Position numbers and translations under genes: made by a program. Below are positions 20,938-33,255 of a stretch of DNA of 64,000 nt, in pieces. Source of the DNA: Verrucomicrobiales bacterium (GTDB lineage: Bacteria > Verrucomicrobiota > Verrucomicrobiia > Verrucomicrobiales > V1-33); assembly GCA_028293125.1 (NCBI GenBank), contig JAQGPJ010000071.1:124001-188000 (forward strand). Reading direction: 5' to 3'. How positions within the stretch are numbered: the first letter of the stretch is position 1; each line of letters opens with the position of its first letter. Under the pieces are notes generated by a model. The model was not told the origin of the DNA, ran no database searches, and worked only from the letters and a program-made list of their open reading frames with translations.

Positions 20938-22221
20938 ATGTCCTCAGCTGTTCTTTCCACGTCCGTAATCCGTCTGCTGGCCCCTGTTTCCTCACTTCCC
21001 TCCGAAGGTGAGGAGGAACTCCCGGAATTCTGCGCCGACCAGAGCGCCGGCAGCCTCATGCGGGTGCTGGGCTGGTATCAGCATCTGGCGGCCCCCGGTG
21101 CCGTGCGGCTGCGCCTGAACGGTCTGGAGCTGGAGTGGCCGCAGGAACCGGAAGCCCCGTTGGCCATTCTGGAGCTGGAGGAGTCGGAGGAGGGGCTGTC
21201 GATGGAGGACTCCCCGGCGGGAGTGGAAATCTCCTGGGCTGCCGTGGCGGAGGCCTATGCGCGCCGCACGGACGATTCCCACTTTCTGGGCGGTCCCGTG
21301 GAGGCCCAGCGCGTGCTGTTGGAAGTCATCCGGGAGGAGGCGCGGGAAACGGCGAGGTTTTTTGAGGGCGATGCGCTGCCCCTGATCGGGAAGCGCGATC
21401 TGGGGAATGGCACCGTGGAGTTCGCCTTTCTCGGGATCTGGCTGAATCTGGAGGAGAAGGACGGTTTCACCGGGTCCCTCAGCCGCAGCCTGTCCAGCCA
21501 GTGCTGGGACGGGGTGGGAAATCAGCAGGGCACCCTGCTGATTCTAGAGGATCCGGAGGCGGAGGGCCACGGCATCCGCGGGGCAGCCGCCAGCCTGTCC
21601 CTGCTGGCGGTGGTGTTCACCGCCCCGGCGGCGCAGGCCGGACTTTTTGGCTTTGGAGGCAACAAACCGCCTGCGGCGGTGACGCACGAGAGCAAGGCCA
21701 CGGTGGACGGCACCCCGTTGCTGGTGAAATCCCAAAAGCTGGTGCAGGCGGCTCCCAAAATCTACCCCTCCGGTCTGGCGGGACAGGACCAGGACGCTCC
21801 CCGCAAGGTGGTGGTGGATATCAAAGCCCAGCGTGCCTATCTCTTTGTAGGCGGCAAACTGGCTTTTGAAACTCCGGTCTCCACCGCCTCCAAGGGCCGC
21901 ACCACGCCCCGGGGCACCTTCAACATCACGGAGAAGATCCGCAGCGGCAAACGCTCCACCATCTACAAGAGCGCCATGCCCTACTGGAACCGGCTGGACG
22001 AGACCGCCATCGGCATGCACACCGGCCAGCTGCCCGGTTATCCGGCCTCCCACGGCTGCATCCGCCTGCCGGATGAGTCCGCCCGCTTCATTTTCGACAA
22101 CGCCTCCCGCGGCACCACGGTGCAGATCGTCGATGCCCTGGCCGCTGCGCCGGTGCCCACGCCGGCAGCCCCTGCCGCACCCGCTCCGGCGTCCGGTCTT
22201 CTGGCTGCCGCCGGCGGCTGA
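20938..22221 (+). CDS. L,D-transpeptidase fused to a novel N-terminal domain
   Basis: The C-terminal ~150 residues are a YkuD-type L,D-transpeptidase that would cross-link peptidoglycan or attach proteins to it. Visible motifs are KVVVDIKAQRAYLFVGGKLAF, TTPRGTFNITEK and the catalytic HTGQLPGYPASHGCIRLP (Cys about 373). The first ~215 residues are an acidic domain I do not recognise. Between them, at about residues 216-235, sits AAASLSLLAVVFTAPAAQAG, which looks like a signal peptide complete with an AQAG cleavage site but lies deep inside the protein. No ATG or GTG just before it would allow a separate start. It is therefore a real fusion, a signal-anchored type II protein, or two genes merged by mutation. 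Confidence 0.8.
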   Translation: MSSAVLSTSVIRLLAPVSSLPSEGEEELPEFCADQSAGSLMRVLGWYQHLAAPGAVRLRLNGLELEWPQEPEAPLAILELEESEEGLSMEDSPAGVEISWAAVAEAYARRTDDSHFLGGPVEAQRVLLEVIREEARETARFFEGDALPLIGKRDLGNGTVEFAFLGIWLNLEEKDGFTGSLSRSLSSQCWDGVGNQQGTLLILEDPEAEGHGIRGAAASLSLLAVVFTAPAAQAGLFGFGGNKPPAAVTHESKATVDGTPLLVKSQKLVQAAPKIYPSGLAGQDQDAPRKVVVDIKAQRAYLFVGGKLAFETPVSTASKGRTTPRGTFNITEKIRSGKRSTIYKSAMPYWNRLDETAIGMHTGQLPGYPASHGCIRLPDESARFIFDNASRGTTVQIVDALAAAPVPTPAAPAAPAPASGLLAAAGG

Positions 22222-23380: not shown

Positions 23381-24403
23381 ATGTCCGAGACTTCCTCCTT
23401 ATCCTCTCCGCTGCCTGAAGACGATGTGGCGGCCATCGATCATCTCCGGGCCACCTACGGCCGCCTTACCAGGGAACTGGGCAAGGTCATTGTCGGCCAG
23501 CAGGACGTGATCGAGCAGCTGTGCATCTGCCTTTTCGCCCGGGGCCATGCCCTGCTGATGGGGGTTCCGGGCCTGGCGAAGACGCTGCTGATCAGCCGGT
23601 TGGCGGAAACGCTCTCGCTCGGTTTCAGCCGCATTCAGTTCACGCCGGATTTGATGCCGATGGATATCACCGGCACCGACATTCTCCAGGAGCTGCCCGG
23701 CGGGAAACGCCAGTTTGAATTCGCGAAAGGTCCCGTCTTCGCCAACATCGTGCTGGCCGATGAGATCAACCGCGCCCCGGCCAAAACCCAGGCGGCGATG
23801 CTGGAGGCCATGCAGGAGCACCGGGTCACGGTCGCCGGGCGCACCTATAAACTGGAGGCCCCGTTTTTTGTGCTGGCCACGCAGAACCCCATCGAACAGG
23901 AAGGCACCTATCCTTTGCCCGAAGCGCAGCTGGACCGCTTCATGTTCATGATCGGCGTGGACTACCCCAGCCGGGACGAGGAGATCGCCATCGCCCGCTC
24001 CACCACCGGGACCGGCCAGCCGGTGCTGGAGCATGTGCTGGATGGAGACCGCGTGACCGCCTACCAGGAATTGGTGCGGCGGGTGCCGGTGCCTGACCAT
24101 ATCTATTCCTTCGCCGTCGATCTGGTGCGCCGGACCCGTCCCGCGGGGACGGAGGCGCCGGACTGGCTGAAGCCGCTGGTGGGCTGGGGGGCCGGGCCGC
24201 GCGCGGTGCAGTACCTGATTCTGGGAGCCAAGGCGCGCGCCGCGCTGATGGGAAGCTACATGGTGCGGCTGGAGGATGTGATTGCCGTGGCCCAGCCGGT
24301 GCTGAGGCACCGTCTGATGACAACATTCACGGCCCAGTCGGATGGCATCGACAGCATCGCGGTCACGAAGCGCCTCGTGGAGGATTTGCGCAGGGAGGGC
24401 TGA
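23381..24403 (+). CDS. MoxR-type AAA+ ATPase
   Basis: AAA_3/MoxR ATPase of usual size (340 residues). Walker A is GVPGLAKT at about residues 61-68, Walker B is [23 protein letters not shown], and sensor 1 lies in [27 protein letters not shown]-terminal lid domain follows. Family members act with VWA proteins as metal-dependent chaperone pairs that mature or insert other proteins. It is the first gene of a run of eight or more co-directional genes encoding DUF58 and VWA partners. A 306-bp leader precedes it. Confidence 0.95.
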
Positions 24404-24442: not shown

Positions 24443-25357
24443 ATGAGCTCCGCCGCCGCCGTCTCCACTTCCATAATTGACAGCACGGTGATTTCCCGTC
24501 TGCTGGCGCTGCCCCTGAATGCCCGGCAGGCCATGACCGGCAGCGTCTCAGGCCGGCACCGCAGCCCGGTCAGGGGTTCGTCCGTGGAGTTTGCCCAATA
24601 CCGCAAATATGTGCCCGGCGATGACACCCGGCGGCTCGACTGGCGCACTTGGGGAAGGACGGACCGGTTTTATATCAAGGAGTTTGAAGCCGACACCAAC
24701 CTGCGCCTCGCCCTTGTCGTGGATGCCAGCGGCTCCATGGGCTACGGCCCGGCGGGCGCCACGCGGCTGGACTACAGCCGGAAACTGGCGGGAAGTCTCG
24801 GCTGGCTGGCGGCGCATCAGGGGGATGCCGTGGGCCTGTGGGGCGTCGGCAGGGACCACCGTCAGAAGCTGCCCGCCAAACGTGGGGCGGCCCATCTGAA
24901 GCTGGTGCTGGATCAACTGGCGGGTCTGGAGGCCCAAGGGGGAACCACCATTCTGGAAGCCCTGCATCAGGCGGCGGACCAAATTCCGCAGCGTGCCCTG
25001 GTGGTGGCGGTGTCGGATTTTTTTATTGAGCCCGCAAAGCTGAAGCAGGCGCTCCAGCATCTGGGCTTCCGCCGTCATGATGTCGCCCTGTTCCACGTGC
25101 TGGACCGGGTGGAGCTGGACTTCAGCTTCGACCGCCCGGCGCGTTTTGTCGACATGGAGGGAGGAGAGACCCTGCTGGCCGATCCGCCGATGATTGCCAG
25201 CCGCTATCAGGAAGCGGTCAAAAAATATCTGGCGGAGATGGACGAAATGGTCTGCACCACGGGAGTGGACTATCACAGAGTTCTGATGAGCGAGCCTTTC
25301 GGGGAGGTGCTCGCCCGCTTCCTCCTTTCCCGGCTTCAATCCAAAGGCCGCCGCTGA
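24443..25357 (+). CDS. DUF58-domain protein
   Basis: 304 residues. The DUF58 signature appears as GSSVEFAQYRKYVPGDDTRRLDWRTWGRTDRFYIKEFEADT, followed by a VWA-like core with LALVVDASGSMGYG (intact DxSxS metal site). There are no membrane helices, unlike the longer DUF58 proteins, so it is probably a soluble partner of the MoxR ATPase encoded 39 bp upstream. Such pairs are conserved in many bacteria; the client is unknown. Confidence 0.92.
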   Translation: MSSAAAVSTSIIDSTVISRLLALPLNARQAMTGSVSGRHRSPVRGSSVEFAQYRKYVPGDDTRRLDWRTWGRTDRFYIKEFEADTNLRLALVVDASGSMGYGPAGATRLDYSRKLAGSLGWLAAHQGDAVGLWGVGRDHRQKLPAKRGAAHLKLVLDQLAGLEAQGGTTILEALHQAADQIPQRALVVAVSDFFIEPAKLKQALQHLGFRRHDVALFHVLDRVELDFSFDRPARFVDMEGGETLLADPPMIASRYQEAVKKYLAEMDEMVCTTGVDYHRVLMSEPFGEVLARFLLSRLQSKGRR

Positions 25358-25366
25358 CCGGACCGC

Positions 25367-27430
25367 ATGAGCTTTCTCGCGCCCCTGCTGCTTTTCGGCC
25401 TGCCCTTGGCACTGTTGCCGGTGGTGATCCACCTTATCCACCTGATGCGGCGGCGGCAGGTGAAGTGGGCGGCGATGATGTTTCTCCATGCCGCGCAGCG
25501 GATGAACAAGGGCCTGTCGAAGCTGCGGCAGTACCTCATTCTGTTATTCCGGGTGCTGGCGGTGGCGGCGCTGATCCTGATGGCGGGACGTCCGCTGGCG
25601 GGCGGGCTGCTGGGCCTCACCGGAGGGGCTCCGGACTCCGTGATCGTGCTGCTGGACCGCAGTGCCTCCATGGAGCAGCAGCTCCCCACGGCGGGTGTCA
25701 GCAAGCGCGCCGCCGGGCTGCGCAATCTGGCGGCGGCCATCCGGGACGCCTATGGCAAGCGTTCGCGCCTGGTGCTGATCGACAGCGCGACACTCCAGCC
25801 GCTGCCTTTGGAGAAACCGGAGGCGCTCCTCGATCTGCCTCAAACCGGCCCCACGGACACCGCCGCCGATGTGCCGGCCCTGCTTCAGGGGGCACTGGAT
25901 TACATCACCACCAACCAGACCGGCCGCACCGATGTCTGGCTGCTGAGCGATCTGCGGCAGTCCGACTGGAACACCGCCGGAGGCCGCTGGACCGTCCTGC
26001 GCGGGGCCTTCGCCACTCTGCCGGCGGTGCGGTTCCAGGTGCTGGCCTATCCGGAAACACCCGCGGCGGACATGGGGGTCACGGTTGAACAGGCGCAGCG
26101 GCGCGGGACGGCGGAGAAAGCCGAACTGCTCCTCGATATCCGCCTGACGCGCGGGGAGCCGGCCGCGGAGCCGCTGACCGTGCCCCTGCGGGTGGTGGTG
26201 AACGGCGCCGCCAGCACGCTGAATGTGGAGCTCAAAGGCGGTCAGGCGCTGCTGCAGGGTCTGTCCATTCCTATTGATACCGCCACGCACCGTGGTTGGG
26301 GCCGGGTGGAGCTGGCGGCGGACTCCAGTCCGGCGGACAACATTTCGACCTTCGGCTTCGATGATCCGCCCCCTCTGAAATCCGTCATCGTCAGCGGCAG
26401 TCCCGAAGTGTCCGGCCCGCTGCTGGCGGCCCTGACGGCCCCGGCCGATGCCTCCCGGAAATACGAATGCGCCGTTCTGCCTCCGGAGCGGGCGGCGGAG
26501 ATCGTCTGGGACGAGACCGCGCTCATCGTCTGGCAGGCGGCGCTTCCGCGCAACGACCCCGTGCTCACCGGGCAGTTGGAGGCCTACGCCAAGGCCGGGC
26601 GCACGCTGATCCTTCTGCCGCCGGAAAAGCCGGGGGATGGGACATTCTCCGGCCTGCGCTGGACGGCTTGGAAAGACGCCGCCACGGACAAACCTGCCCT
26701 CGTTGAATGGTGGCGCAGCGATGCCGGTCCGCTGGCCGGCACGCGGGCTGGAGCCGCCTTGCCGGTGGGGGAAACCGAGGTTCAGCGCTGGTGCGCCTTG
26801 GAGGGCGAATGCATCCCCCTGGCCCGGCTGGGCGAATCCAGCGGCCGGGCACCGCTGCTGGCGCAGACCGCCCGTGATGGCGATGGTGGGGGCGGGGGGG
26901 GTGTTTACTTTCTGACCACTCTGCCGTCCGCCGGATCCTCCACCCTGGGACGGGACGGCGTAGTGCTGTTTGCCTTCCTGCACCGGGCTTTGAATAACGG
27001 GGCCGCCACTTTGGGCAATGCCCGGCGGCGCGACGCGGGGAAGGGGGCGCTGGGGGAGGATCCGGGTGTTTGGACCCGTCTGGATTTGGCGGAGCGAGGG
27101 GAGATTCCGCCAGCTGAACTGCCGCTGCGGGTGGGTGTCCTGCAGCGGAGGGTGCCCGGCAAACCCGATCTCCTGCTGGCCCTCAACCGGCCGGCGTCCG
27201 AGGATGCGCCGGGGGTGGTGGGCAAAGCGTCGCTGGATGAATTGTTCGCCGGGCTCGACTGGCGGCTGCTGGAACGGACGCTCGGCCAGGAGAAAAGCCT
27301 GACCAGTGAGGTTTGGCGCACTTTCCTGATGCTGATGGCGGCGGCGCTGGTGCTGGAGGCCGTGTTGTGCCTGCCGGAGCGCCGCAAAGCTTCGGAGCGC
27401 CCGGGGGATTTTGGAAAACAGCCCGCATGA
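25367..27430 (+). CDS. BatA/VWA-domain membrane protein
   Basis: 687 residues. The N-terminal BatA-type anchor (MSFLAPLLLFGLPLALLPVVIHLIHLMRRR) has a second helix near residue 60. A VWA domain with metal site VLLDRSASME follows, then a long extracytoplasmic region, and a C-terminal TM helix (FLMLMAAALVLEAVLCLP). The topology is that of Bat-operon 'aerotolerance' proteins seen with MoxR and DUF58. The gene starts 9 bp after DUF58, and its stop overlaps the next start (ATGA). Confidence 0.88.
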   Translation: MSFLAPLLLFGLPLALLPVVIHLIHLMRRRQVKWAAMMFLHAAQRMNKGLSKLRQYLILLFRVLAVAALILMAGRPLAGGLLGLTGGAPDSVIVLLDRSASMEQQLPTAGVSKRAAGLRNLAAAIRDAYGKRSRLVLIDSATLQPLPLEKPEALLDLPQTGPTDTAADVPALLQGALDYITTNQTGRTDVWLLSDLRQSDWNTAGGRWTVLRGAFATLPAVRFQVLAYPETPAADMGVTVEQAQRRGTAEKAELLLDIRLTRGEPAAEPLTVPLRVVVNGAASTLNVELKGGQALLQGLSIPIDTATHRGWGRVELAADSSPADNISTFGFDDPPPLKSVIVSGSPEVSGPLLAALTAPADASRKYECAVLPPERAAEIVWDETALIVWQAALPRNDPVLTGQLEAYAKAGRTLILLPPEKPGDGTFSGLRWTAWKDAATDKPALVEWWRSDAGPLAGTRAGAALPVGETEVQRWCALEGECIPLARLGESSGRAPLLAQTARDGDGGGGGGVYFLTTLPSAGSSTLGRDGVVLFAFLHRALNNGAATLGNARRRDAGKGALGEDPGVWTRLDLAERGEIPPAELPLRVGVLQRRVPGKPDLLLALNRPASEDAPGVVGKASLDELFAGLDWRLLERTLGQEKSLTSEVWRTFLMLMAAALVLEAVLCLPERRKASERPGDFGKQPA

Positions 27431-28431
27431 AACCTTCCTCCAGCGAACTCGTTTTCACCTCCACGCCGCTGTCGGTGGCCGGAGCGGCGCTGTTTGTGCT
27501 TCTGGTGGCGGCGCTGGCCCTGACGGCGTGGCGGCGCAATGGCTGGCGCACGCTGATCGGCTGGCTGGAATTCCTGCGGGTGCTGGTGGCGGCGGGCATC
27601 GCCATCACCCTGAACCAGCCGGAATGGCGGGAGACGTTCAAGCCGGACACCAAGCCGGTGGTGGCGGTGCTGCACGATGTCTCCGGCAGCATGGAAACCC
27701 GCGATGTCACGGATCCCGCGGATTCCGCCGCCGAAGCCCGGTCGCGTCAGGAGGCCGCCGCTCCCTTGGCTGATCCAGCGCTTTGGAAACCTCTCGCGGA
27801 GCGCATGGAGGTGGTGATCGAGCCTTTTTCCTCCTCCGGGGATCCTGCGGCGGAGGCGACCGATCTGCACGGTGCCCTGATGAGCCTGCTGGAGCGGCAG
27901 CCGCGCCTCGCAGCCGTGGTGCTGGCGACGGACGGGGATTGGAACACCGGGCTGGCTCCCTCCCAGGCGGCGGTCCGTCTGCGCATGAAGGGCGTTCCGG
28001 TTTTTGCCGTGCCCATGGGGGCGGACACCCGGCTGCCGGATGTGGAGATTGCCAGTTTCGATGTCCCGGCGTTCGCCGTCGCCGGCAAGCCGCTGCGGAT
28101 TCCCTTTTCCATCGATTCCTCCCTGCCGCGCGACGAGGTGGCCTCGGTGGTCATGACCACCTCCTCCGGCGCGGAGGTCCGTCAGGAATTCACCCTCCCG
28201 GCCATGGGGCGTCTTCAGGATGCCATGGTGTGGCGGCCCGGTTCTCCCGGCAAAGTGCATCTGAAGCTGGAGGTGCCTCAAACCGGCACCGAGCGCAATT
28301 TGGAGAATAACAAAACAGAAGCCAATCTCGATATCCGCCAGGAGCAGCTCCACGTGCTGGTGGTGGAGAGCTTCCCGCGCTGGGAGTACCGCTACCTGCG
28401 GAACGCCCTCGAGCGCGATCCCGGCGTGTAG
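27427..28431 (+). CDS. VWA membrane protein, N-terminal part (ends at in-frame TAG)
   Basis: 334 residues from ATG 27427, which overlaps the upstream stop; the ORF-track start at 27313 is inside the previous gene. It has two N-terminal TM helices, a VWA domain with AVLHDVSGSME (intact metal site) and a beta domain. It then begins a conserved segment (LHVLVVESFPRWEYRYLRNALERDPGV) that is cut by TAG at 28429-28431. The next codon opens the following ORF in the same frame, which continues as the homologous protein should. One base change (GAG to TAG) would explain it. The product as written lacks the amidotransferase-like half. Confidence 0.8.
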   Translation: MKPSSSELVFTSTPLSVAGAALFVLLVAALALTAWRRNGWRTLIGWLEFLRVLVAAGIAITLNQPEWRETFKPDTKPVVAVLHDVSGSMETRDVTDPADSAAEARSRQEAAAPLADPALWKPLAERMEVVIEPFSSSGDPAAEATDLHGALMSLLERQPRLAAVVLATDGDWNTGLAPSQAAVRLRMKGVPVFAVPMGADTRLPDVEIASFDVPAFAVAGKPLRIPFSIDSSLPRDEVASVVMTTSSGAEVRQEFTLPAMGRLQDAMVWRPGSPGKVHLKLEVPQTGTERNLENNKTEANLDIRQEQLHVLVVESFPRWEYRYLRNALERDPGV

Positions 28432-29631
28432 GTGCATACGCTGCTTTTTCAGCCGGATCTGGGCAAACCCGGAGCCGGGCGGGGTTATCTGCCTGCCTTT
28501 CCCAAGGAGGCGGAACTGGCCAAATACGATGTCGTTTTCCTGGGCGATGTGGGCATTGAAAAGGGCCAGCTGACAGCGGAGGACGGCACGGCGCTGGTCA
28601 GGCTGGTGCGGGATCAGGCGGGCGGTCTGGTTTTTCTGCCCGGTCTGCGGGGGTTCAATGCCTCCCTGCAGGGGAGCCCCCTGGGCGAACTGATGCCCGT
28701 GGTGTGGGATGAGGCCCAGCCGCGCGGCTGGGGCACCGCGGCTCCGGGACGCTTCACTCTGACCGATGCGGGCACGGAAAGCCTGCTGACAAAACTGGAG
28801 GATACCGCCGAGGCCAGTGCCAAGGCGTGGGCCGTCCTGCCGGGCTTCCAGTGGTATGCCCCCGCGCTGCGGGCCAAAGCCGGCACGGAGGTGCTCGCCA
28901 CCCACGCCACGGAGACCAACCAGTTTGGCCGGGTGCCCTTGATTGTGACACGCACCTTCGGGGCGGGGAAAATTCTTTATATGGGATCCGACGGCGCCTG
29001 GCGCTGGCGGCGCGGAGTCGAGGATAAATACCACTACCGCTTCTGGGGGCAGGTCGCCCGCTGGATGGCCTATCAGCGGAACATGGCCCAAGGGGAGCAG
29101 ATGCGGCTCTTTTTTGCTCCCGACCGTCCCCGGACGGGAGCCACCCTCACCCTGAATGCCAACGTCGCCGGCCTGAATGGCGAGCCTCTGCGCGGCGGCG
29201 TGGTCGTCGCGGAGATTCTGTCCGCTTCCGGCCGGCCGTCGTCAGTGCGCCTGTTGCCCGCGGGGGAGGAGGCCTGGGGCCTGTTCACCGGCGTATTCAC
29301 TCCGGCGGAACCCGGTGATTACCGAATCCGTCTGTCCTGCGCCGAGGCGGGGGCCGCTTTGGAGGCCACGGTATCCGTGCAGGGCACCCGCCGGGAAAAA
29401 CGCGGCCAGCCGGCGCGGCCTGAGGTGCTTCGGGAAATCGCCCAGCTGACTCGCGGGCAATGGATCGCCTCCGCCCGGCCCGCCGATGTGCTGGCCGCTG
29501 TCACGGCGCTGCCCGTCCCGGAGCTGACGGAGCGCCGCATTCCGCTCTGGGCGCATCCCGCCTGGGCGGGATCCCTCATTCTGTTGCTCGCACTCTTCTG
29601 GGCCGGGCGGAAAGCCGCCGGTGTTTTCTGA
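28432..29631 (+). pseudogene. C-terminal half of the VWA/amidotransferase-like protein
   Basis: 399 codons directly following the TAG in the same frame, so readthrough would give one protein of about 734 residues. It holds a glutamine-amidotransferase-like domain (KYDVVFLGDVGIEKGQLTAEDG, GGLVFLPGLRGF, GAGKILYMGSDGAWRWRRGVEDKYHYRFWGQV). A beta domain and a C-terminal TM helix (AGSLILLLALFWAG) follow. The GTG at 28432 has no ribosome-binding site and no separate start is expected here. It is either the 3' part of a nonsense-broken gene, a readthrough product, or a sequencing error. Codon use and composition stay normal throughout. Confidence 0.75.
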
Positions 29632-29748
29632 CGTGAAAAATCTGTTTCCCACTCTGCAAAGCCTGTCAAATTCGATGCGCTGCCATTCCGGTGACAGTTC
29701 ACAACACGGAATCACCGCAGTTTGGTCCAATCCCAATCCCTGAGCGTT

Positions 29749-32700
29749 ATGAATGGTTCCCCTCTCCCGCTTCCACCGGTTTTGTCCTCCAGATTGTCGG
29801 ACTTCCGCCGCCGGGTCTGGACAGTGAAACTGACTGAGGGTCTGCTGGCCTCGGTGTGCGGTCTCGCCCTTTCCTATCTGGCGGTCCTGGCGCTGGACCG
29901 CCTTATGGAAACCCCGGTGTGGCTGCGCTCCACCCTGCTGATTCTGGGGGCCGCCGTGCCGGGCATCGGATTGCCGCTGCAATGGCACCGCTGGGTCTGG
30001 CGGCAGCGTCGTCTGGAGGATGCTGCCCGGCTGCTGCGCTGGAAATTCCCGCGCCTCGGTGATCAGTTGCTGGGCATTGTGGAGCTGGCCGGGCAGAGCG
30101 GCACCGCCACCGGCCGCAGCGAACGCCTGGTGCAGGCCGCGATGGTCCAGGCGGACGAGGCGGTGAAAGATCAAAATTTCTCCGGAGCCGTGCCCCGCGC
30201 CAAACCCCGTCAATGGGCCTGGGCCTCCGCCGGAGCCGCAGTGCTGGTGGCGGCGGGTTTTGTGGGAATCAATGAAGCAGCCCGCAATGCCCTGACCCGC
30301 TGGCTGATGCCGTGGAGGGAGACGGAGCGCTTCACCTTTGCCCGCGTTGAGGGTTTGCCGGATCCATTGGTCGTGCCGTCCGCTGAACCTTTCACTCTGC
30401 CTATCCATCTTCTTAGCGAGTCGCAATGGAAGGCAGCCGATGCCGTGGGAAAAATTGACGGGCAGCCTGCCGTTTTTGCCAGCCTGAACAAGCGGGACGG
30501 GCAGGGCAGGGTCTATGGGAGCTTTGACCTGAATTTCCCCCCTCAGAAATCCGATAGCACCATTTCCTTGAAGGTGGGGGATGTGTATAAGGAAATTGCC
30601 GTCCAACCGCGCCCCCGCCCGGAGCTGACCGGGCTCCGGGTCCGCCTCCAGCTGCCGGATTATCTTCAATATGAGACCCGGCCCGTAGTGGACGTGCGGG
30701 GCGGATCCGTCAAGGTGCTGAAGGGCGCGCAGGCCAGCTTTGAAGCCAGTGCCAGCCGGGAATTGGCGCAGGCGCAAATCGACGGAAAACCCGTCCGCAC
30801 CGAGGAGGGCCGCCTCGTCACCGAGCCCCAGGCGGTGGATGCGGCCCGCGATGTCACCTTCACCTGGAAAGATTCCCTCGGCCTGAGTGCCCGCGTGCCC
30901 CTTGTGCTTCAGATCCAGACTTCGGAGGACGAGGCGCCCCGCATCACTGCCAGCCGGGAATCCCTGGAGCAGGTGGTGCTGGAATCCGAAGTGGTGGCTT
31001 TTGACATCAGTGCCTCGGACGACTTCGGTCTGCGTCATCTGGGTCTGGAGTGGAAAAGCGTGCCCGACGGCGGTCAGCCCGACGCGTCCCGCATCAAAGG
31101 CGGCAAAATCATCGCCGCCGGGGCTCCGGAAACCAAACAGATCAAATCCCGCGCCACCTTCTGCGCCACCCGCGAGGGCATCGCTCCTCAAACAGTCGAA
31201 GTCCGCGCCTGGGCCGCGGATTACATGGACAGCCGCGAACCGGCCCGCAGCGCCGCTTTTGTGCTCCATGTGCTCAACCGGCCCGACCACGCCCTGTGGG
31301 TCACCCAGCAGATGGGCAAATGGCTGGAGGCCGCCCGGGAGACCTATGAGCGGGAACAGCAGCTTCACCAGACCAACAAGGAACTGCGCGGCCTCAGCGC
31401 CACCGAGCTCGACCGCCCGGAAAACCGCCGCCGTGTGGCCCTGCAATCCAGCGCCGAAAACGCCAATGCCGCCCGCCTGGCCGCGCTGAATCAGGCCGGC
31501 CGCACCCTGGTGGAGCACGCGGCCAAAAATTCCGAATTCGATGCGCCCCGCCTGGAATCATGGGCCACCATGCTGAAGTCGCTCCAGGACATCGCCGCCA
31601 ACCGGATGCCGGATGTGGCCGGACTGCTCAAGCAGTCCGCCGATGCCAAAGCGGACGGAAAACCGGCATCCGCCGGCGCGGCGCCCAGCGGCCAGCAAAA
31701 TCCTGCCATGGCGGCAAATCCCGGCAGTTCCGGCGGCAAACCTGGAGCCCCCAAGGACAGCCCCACCGCGCCCGCCATTGCCCAGGGACCCCCGCCTCCT
31801 CCGGGTGGAAATGCCGCGCCTCCGGCTGATCCCGAAGCCAAACCCAAAGAGGCCGCGCCCTCCCTCAAACTGACGGAGAGCACCATGAATCCACCGGTCC
31901 CGCCCGCTGCGCCCGGGGCAGTGGAGGCACCAAAGCCGCCGGGTGCGGGGAAACTGACTCTCCCCACCAACTCCCTCGCCGCCGCGCCTGGACAAAAGCC
32001 GGGAAATGCTCCCCCGGCGGAGTCCTCCGCCCAAAAGCCGTTGGAGGCGGGGGTGAACGGGCAGAAGGAGCTGCTGGCGGAGTTTGCCAAAGTTTCCGAT
32101 CAACTGACGGACATCCTCTCCAGCCTGGAGGCCAGCACTTTTGTGAAACGCTTCAAAGCGGCCTCCCGTGAGCAGACCGCGCTCGCCTCCGGCATCAGTC
32201 AGAAAACCTTGGATGCTTTTGGCATTGCCCGGGAACCGCAGGCCACGCAGCCTTTGCTTCCACCCCCGGCCCCGCCGGACGGCGGCAAGGAGAGGGAGGA
32301 AGCCGCGGCCACGGCGGAAAACTCCGCGGACAAGGAGTCCAATGCGGTTTATGTGACCGCGTTCGCGCCCGAGGCGAAGGGGAAAGCCAAGGAGCAGAGC
32401 CGTGTGGTGGAGGTCATCCAGAGCGACCTTGAGGCCTATTTTCAACGCCGGCCGGACGCGCATTTCAGGAAGGTGCTTTCCGAAATGAAGCAGGTCAAAG
32501 TGGTGCAGGCCTTGGGCCGCATCGGCGACCGGGCCGCCGGAAACCTGAGCGGCAACGCCATGCACGGTGCGGAATTCTGGGCGGACACCATGGACCGCTG
32601 GGCCGAGGAGATGGTGGCGGCGGGCCAGTGCTCGAACTGTTCCTCCTGCAGCGGCGACAGCCTGCCGCCGGAGATCGTGCTGAAGGTCATGCAGTCGCTG

Positions 32701-33255
32701 CGGGATGAGATGAAACTGCGGGATGAAACCCGCGAATTGGAGAACGCCAAAAAGGCGCTTCAGGCCGGCGAACACAACACCCGCAGCCATAAGCTGGCTG
32801 GGGAGCAGACACGCATCTCCACCCATACCCGGAGCGCGATGGAGGACATCACCGCCTTGCCGGAGGGGGACCGGAAATTCGCCAAGGAAATGAAGCTGCT
32901 GACGGCGGTGGTGCGGGTGATGGATGAAACCACTACGCTGCTGGAGGCTCCGGAAACCGGAGCCCCGGCCATTGCCGCGGAGACGGAGGCCATTGAGTTC
33001 CTGCTCCAGACCAAACGGCAGAAGCCTGATGGCGGCGGTGGGGGCGGCGGAAGCCCTGGAGACGGGAAGGGTGGACTGGGCGTGGGCACTGCCGCTCTGA
33101 CGGATCTTGGTCCCGGTTCGGACGCGGACACCGTGGTCAGCGCCCGCCCGGTCGGACAGGCCACCGGCCATGCCGGACGTGAATTCCCCGACGAGTTCAG
33201 GTCCGGTCTTGATGCCTACTTCAGCCATTTGGAGGGAACCCGCCGCACCCCATGA
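29749..33255 (+). CDS. DUF4175-like giant membrane protein
   Basis: About 1168 residues from ATG 29749. Two N-terminal TM helices are followed by an amphipathic segment and a third helix near residue 165. A chain of beta domains comes next, then helical regions. Residues ~640-770 are a Pro/Ala-rich linker, and the C-terminal third is helical with a CSNCSSCSG cluster, ending in a Gly-rich tail. It fits the DUF4175-like proteins that accompany MoxR/VWA operons in Verrucomicrobiota and Planctomycetes; their function is unknown. It lies 117 bp after the amidotransferase-like ORF, and its stop overlaps the next start (ATGA). Confidence 0.8.
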   Translation: MNGSPLPLPPVLSSRLSDFRRRVWTVKLTEGLLASVCGLALSYLAVLALDRLMETPVWLRSTLLILGAAVPGIGLPLQWHRWVWRQRRLEDAARLLRWKFPRLGDQLLGIVELAGQSGTATGRSERLVQAAMVQADEAVKDQNFSGAVPRAKPRQWAWASAGAAVLVAAGFVGINEAARNALTRWLMPWRETERFTFARVEGLPDPLVVPSAEPFTLPIHLLSESQWKAADAVGKIDGQPAVFASLNKRDGQGRVYGSFDLNFPPQKSDSTISLKVGDVYKEIAVQPRPRPELTGLRVRLQLPDYLQYETRPVVDVRGGSVKVLKGAQASFEASASRELAQAQIDGKPVRTEEGRLVTEPQAVDAARDVTFTWKDSLGLSARVPLVLQIQTSEDEAPRITASRESLEQVVLESEVVAFDISASDDFGLRHLGLEWKSVPDGGQPDASRIKGGKIIAAGAPETKQIKSRATFCATREGIAPQTVEVRAWAADYMDSREPARSAAFVLHVLNRPDHALWVTQQMGKWLEAARETYEREQQLHQTNKELRGLSATELDRPENRRRVALQSSAENANAARLAALNQAGRTLVEHAAKNSEFDAPRLESWATMLKSLQDIAANRMPDVAGLLKQSADAKADGKPASAGAAPSGQQNPAMAANPGSSGGKPGAPKDSPTAPAIAQGPPPPPGGNAAPPADPEAKPKEAAPSLKLTESTMNPPVPPAAPGAVEAPKPPGAGKLTLPTNSLAAAPGQKPGNAPPAESSAQKPLEAGVNGQKELLAEFAKVSDQLTDILSSLEASTFVKRFKAASREQTALASGISQKTLDAFGIAREPQATQPLLPPPAPPDGGKEREEAAATAENSADKESNAVYVTAFAPEAKGKAKEQSRVVEVIQSDLEAYFQRRPDAHFRKVLSEMKQVKVVQALGRIGDRAAGNLSGNAMHGAEFWADTMDRWAEEMVAAGQCSNCSSCSGDSLPPEIVLKVMQSLRDEMKLRDETRELENAKKALQAGEHNTRSHKLAGEQTRISTHTRSAMEDITALPEGDRKFAKEMKLLTAVVRVMDETTTLLEAPETGAPAIAAETEAIEFLLQTKRQKPDGGGGGGGSPGDGKGGLGVGTAALTDLGPGSDADTVVSARPVGQATGHAGREFPDEFRSGLDAYFSHLEGTRRTP

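Follow-up and report, generated by a model that had tools for sequence, protein, structure and literature searches.

Isolated in-frame stop codons are reported to be widespread and short-lived in bacteria, and the described cases consist of a single stop in an otherwise intact gene whose flanks are under purifying selection, with TAG among the stop types (Belinky et al. 2021, PMC7918605). In-frame UAG codons within coding sequences are also a feature of UAG recoding, as in pyrrolysine systems and UAG-to-sense genetic codes. Operons of the MoxR-DUF58-BatA type (MoxR AAA+ / VWA systems) form a further point of comparison, being composed of genes for a MoxR protein, a DUF58 protein and a BatA N-terminal protein, in that order, followed by further large membrane proteins.

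The locus described here lies in a window of 64,000 nucleotides from a Verrucomicrobiales bacterium, whose genome (hereafter G000) is a draft assembly of 120 contigs that is 99.1% complete. It carries an operon of the MoxR-DUF58-BatA type but differs from others in that one of the downstream membrane proteins is interrupted by a TAG codon, and this in G000 only. The stops cataloged by Belinky et al. (2021, PMC7918605) are common to at least two species, whereas the G000 stop is private to one genome and so could be an error. Unlike genomes that recode UAG, G000 yielded no tRNA with a CUA anticodon and uses TAG as a normal gene end; furthermore, the residue opposite its in-frame TAGs is inconsistent and the stop is not conserved.

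An interrupted gene in a MoxR-type cluster

Pfam and NCBIfam matches establish the order of the cluster as a MoxR AAA+ ATPase, a DUF58 protein, a BatA-N/two-anchor protein, the split gene and a large protein lacking Pfam matches. The features are as follows.

23381..24403, + strand: gene for a MoxR-type AAA+ ATPase (AAA_3, bpMoxR), intact (open reading frame; Pfam AAA_3, E 1e-62)
24443..25357, + strand: gene for a DUF58 / VWA protein, intact (DUF58, E 1e-44)
25367..27430, + strand: gene for a membrane protein with a BatA N-terminal (two_anch) region, intact (TIGR02226, E 2e-18)
27427..28431, + strand: N-terminal half of the split gene, with hydrophobic N-terminal segments and a divergent VWA-like region, and the TAG at its end
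28429..28431, + strand: the in-frame TAG, mostly Glu or Asp in homologues
28432..29631, + strand: C-terminal half of the split gene, with a divergent class-I-amidotransferase-like region and a hydrophobic C-terminus, without a start signal
29722..33255, + strand: next gene of the cluster, ~1170 residues, intact, no Pfam match at E 0.001

An earlier note, made from the letters of the window, had placed the split gene in a MoxR operon with intact flanking genes and had described its frame as open but for one TAG, and both descriptions are borne out. The stop is directly evident in the assembled sequence. The frame begins with an ATG at 27427, which overlaps the TGA of the upstream BatA-type gene (ATGA), runs for 334 codons to the TAG at 28429-28431, and continues for 399 codons to a TGA at 29629-29631; a reading of the window's open reading frames revealed no second stop or frameshift between 27427 and 29631. 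The protein that would result from reading through the TAG aligns end to end, over 734 columns, with its counterparts in genomes G004 (81% identity) and G005 (75%). A 399-codon open frame that prolongs an orthologous protein in this manner cannot be accidental, and in coding-potential scans the site at 28429 ranks near the top of the in-frame stops of the genome parts covered. No second copy of the split segment is present in the G000 assembly.

The domain matches of the split protein are weak: of 12 relatives, 8 give GATase1_like, with E 4e-5 at best, and 3 give VWA_CoxE. Its matches to solved structures are marginal; the proposed VWA/amidotransferase-like identity can thus be kept only tentatively. 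The codon that follows the TAG is a GTG at 28432. No Shine-Dalgarno-like sequence precedes it, as the earlier note had observed, and this argues against a restart of translation at that codon.

Homologues, constraint and the age of the stop

Comparison with homologues places the stop in context. First, the site is a sense codon in every one of the 80 homologues from other species, whose aligned genes are free of stops throughout, and none exists in the two-gene form, split at the same place, that the earlier note had named as counter-evidence. Second, the surrounding segment is conserved (RNALxRDPGV-x-V), as had been claimed, although the residue at the stop itself is not strictly so: Glu, the residue expected from a one-base change, occurs in 57 of the 80 and Asp in 16, making 73 with one or the other, and the remaining seven have Ala (3), Leu (2), Ser (1) or Val (1). 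Third, order-level relatives contribute 16 orthologues, not counting the copy in the window, and all of these are open across the site; this set is drawn in part from the same genomes as the 80. Because every compared homologue is open at this position, the stop is, by this comparison, derived and private to G000.

The gene itself is patchily distributed. The search recovered an orthologue neither from G001 and G003, two of the four congeneric genomes, nor from the family members G007, G008 and G010-G012, several of these seven genomes being incomplete. Its apparent absence from congeners and from other family members suggests that the gene is dispensable, and it appears to be one that can be lost.

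Both halves of the gene carry the signature of continuing constraint. For the pair G000 and G004, dN/dS amounts to 0.096 upstream of the stop, counted from codon 131, and to 0.082 downstream. Amino-acid changes specific to G000 number 12 upstream of the stop, against 11 specific to G004, and 31 against 17 downstream, where the excess is slight. Since the C-terminal half is under constraint like that of the N-terminal half, the stop would be recent, and decay beyond it seems hardly to have begun. These ratios and counts appear to fit equally well with a recent mutation, with a product that is still partly made, and with an erroneous base.

The explanation that we favor, with a probability of roughly 0.6, is that the TAG arose recently, and in this genome alone, by nonsense mutation of a single-copy and apparently expendable gene. 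The ancestral gene would have encoded a membrane protein of ~734 residues in an operon of the MoxR-DUF58-BatA type, and one base substitution would have converted codon 335 to TAG. Ribosomes would then terminate there in the ordinary way to yield a 334-residue N-terminal fragment devoid of the amidotransferase-like region and the hydrophobic C-terminus, with the flanking operon genes remaining intact. We infer both that the organism itself carries the TAG base and that the function of the protein has been lost.

A possible but clearly less probable explanation is an assembly or consensus error, wherein the organism's gene is normal and the TAG is one wrong base in the draft. Apart from the stop, the gene is perfectly preserved upstream and downstream, under purifying selection, and a single base would suffice in a 120-contig draft whose close relatives are metagenome-assembled genomes. 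Against this explanation, coding-potential scans show few in-frame stops in ~2 Mb of G000, and those besides the TAG at 28429 are mostly found in repeat proteins, duplicates and mobile genes, which is the distribution expected of real mutations rather than of random errors.

Other in-frame stops and the reading of UAG

The earlier note had hinted at read-through or genome-wide recoding of TAG and had proposed a search for further in-frame TAGs. Our coding-potential scan of ~2 Mb of G000 was non-exhaustive, with gene boundaries told from mid-gene stops by eye, and it returned a few other in-frame stops. These were TAGs as well as TGAs and affected repeat proteins, a second copy of thymidylate kinase, a transposase and a LamG-type gene. 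In-frame TAGs at C22:63952 and C13:6434 (C denotes a contig) fall in large helical-repeat proteins with paralogues in the genome, and a repeat-type gene at C88:21917 combines an in-frame TAG with a TGA at 22154. In-frame TGAs interrupt an IS630-type transposase (C31:190998) and a LamG-type gene that has another stop as well (C88:117032). The TAG at C108:191770 was considered as the interruption of an essential gene, and this idea was dropped on finding that the affected thymidylate kinase is a second copy, with an intact, distantly related copy on C19.

The residues opposite the in-frame TAGs differ, being Glu or Asp in the split gene and Trp in a protein paralogous to that on C22, whereas the closest thymidylate kinases have Val, Lys, Ala or Arg. 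Moreover, in this GC-rich genome 54-57% of the single-base routes to a stop codon give TAG, such that a majority of TAG is expected from mutation alone. Most candidates of all three stop types proved to be gene boundaries and TGA cases also occur, and we therefore abandoned the notion that the scan singles out TAG. The pattern is that of scattered nonsense mutations, like those known from bacteria at large (PMC7918605), and the hint of recoding is not sustained. Separately, a gene for a conserved 318-residue protein in G005 (contig C2:111117-112055) is reported with one in-frame TAG.

Tolerated or regulatory read-through, in which some ribosomes would decode UAG with a near-cognate tRNA and supply a low level of full-length protein, seems to us improbable. 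Such a product, or a residual function, would also fit the downstream dN/dS of ~0.08, and in-frame stops in bacteria have been argued to be read through (PMC7918605), but a recent mutation predicts the same ratio and the stop is private to one genome. Furthermore, no RNA structure is predicted downstream of the stop (z -0.45) and no Rfam family matches the site, which argues against a structured read-through signal. No tRNA with a CUA anticodon was found among the G000 tRNAs, which were obtained from 47 covariance-model matches and read by ARAGORN, nor did a suppressor tRNA turn up among those listed. The same analysis brought up weakly scoring extra tRNA genes (Gln, Met and two Leu) clustered at C48:122525-124013, with others nearby; this cluster is possibly derived from a mobile element.

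Elsewhere in G000, TAG serves as a normal gene end. Gene prediction over 2.07 Mb gave 1444 genes, 149 of them ending in TAG, and no depletion or loss of UAG as a gene end was observed. All five TAG-ended genes with an end open to comparison in the retrieved part of G004 stop within 6 codons of the G004 end, backup second stops near TAG ends are not enriched, and no internal TAG occurs in 52 gene pairs compared between G000 and G004. Taken together with the lack of a CUA tRNA and of downstream structure, these observations argue for normal termination at UAG in G000. In both G000 and G004, a C follows 36-41% of TAG stops but 21% of TGA stops.

Release factor 1 and the weight of the finding

One observation sits uneasily with this ordinary use of TAG. 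A search of the G000 assembly with the release factor 1 (RF1) model failed to find prfA; of its two matches one is RF2, which scores 472 bits with the prfB model, and the other a short release-factor-like protein, and no RF1 fragment emerged at a low search threshold. Above-threshold prfA genes are present in 22 of 27 related genomes, with none in G000, G004 or the incomplete G007 and with contig-end fragments in G002 and G016. The gene rpmE (ribosomal protein L31) adjoins prfA in G001, G003, G005, G006 and G008, a pairing that is conserved in the family, and it too was not found in the G000 and G004 assemblies.

The likeliest cause is a gap in both draft assemblies, because TAG is used normally, because prfA lies at contig ends in G001 and G002, and because a real absence would have required two independent losses, given that G002, whose prfA runs off the end of its contig, is closer to G004 in the split gene than G000 is. 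Attempts to place the missing gene by synteny gave no clear location: on G000 contig C73 the orthologue of a G003 prfA neighbor lies ~430 bases short of the contig end, in an adjacency that is not seen in G001, and a homologue of another prfA neighbor resides on C105 in different surroundings. With prfA not found in the assembly, a non-standard handling of UAG is formally conceivable.

A genome-wide change in the meaning of UAG, following loss of release factor 1 in the lineage, is nonetheless highly improbable. In its favor are the absence of prfA and rpmE from the assemblies of both G004 and a 99.1% complete G000, set against the above-threshold prfA genes of most relatives, and the several other in-frame TAGs, but TAG ends genes at an ordinary frequency, at positions matching the relative's ends and without backup stops. 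Likewise opposed to it are the missing CUA tRNA, the 52 gene pairs without an internal TAG, the in-frame TGAs, the standing of TAG as the likeliest nonsense product, the inconsistent residues, and the need for two losses of prfA that its presence in G002 imposes. Equally improbable is a lineage without release factor 1 and rpmE in which UAG would be terminated poorly and in-frame UAGs would be tolerated because near-cognate tRNAs decode them, as a natural parallel to E. coli strains engineered to lack RF1.

An ordinary recent nonsense mutation or a consensus error is thus our joint verdict, and recoding is unlikely. A free-living bacterium that lacks RF1 would, if true, come as a great surprise, and two congeneric assemblies do lack prfA and rpmE despite ordinary use of TAG. 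The finding itself carries small weight, since it amounts to a single nonsense substitution, in one draft genome, of a gene that seems expendable. Its value is as a warning that an in-frame TAG should not be taken for recoding.
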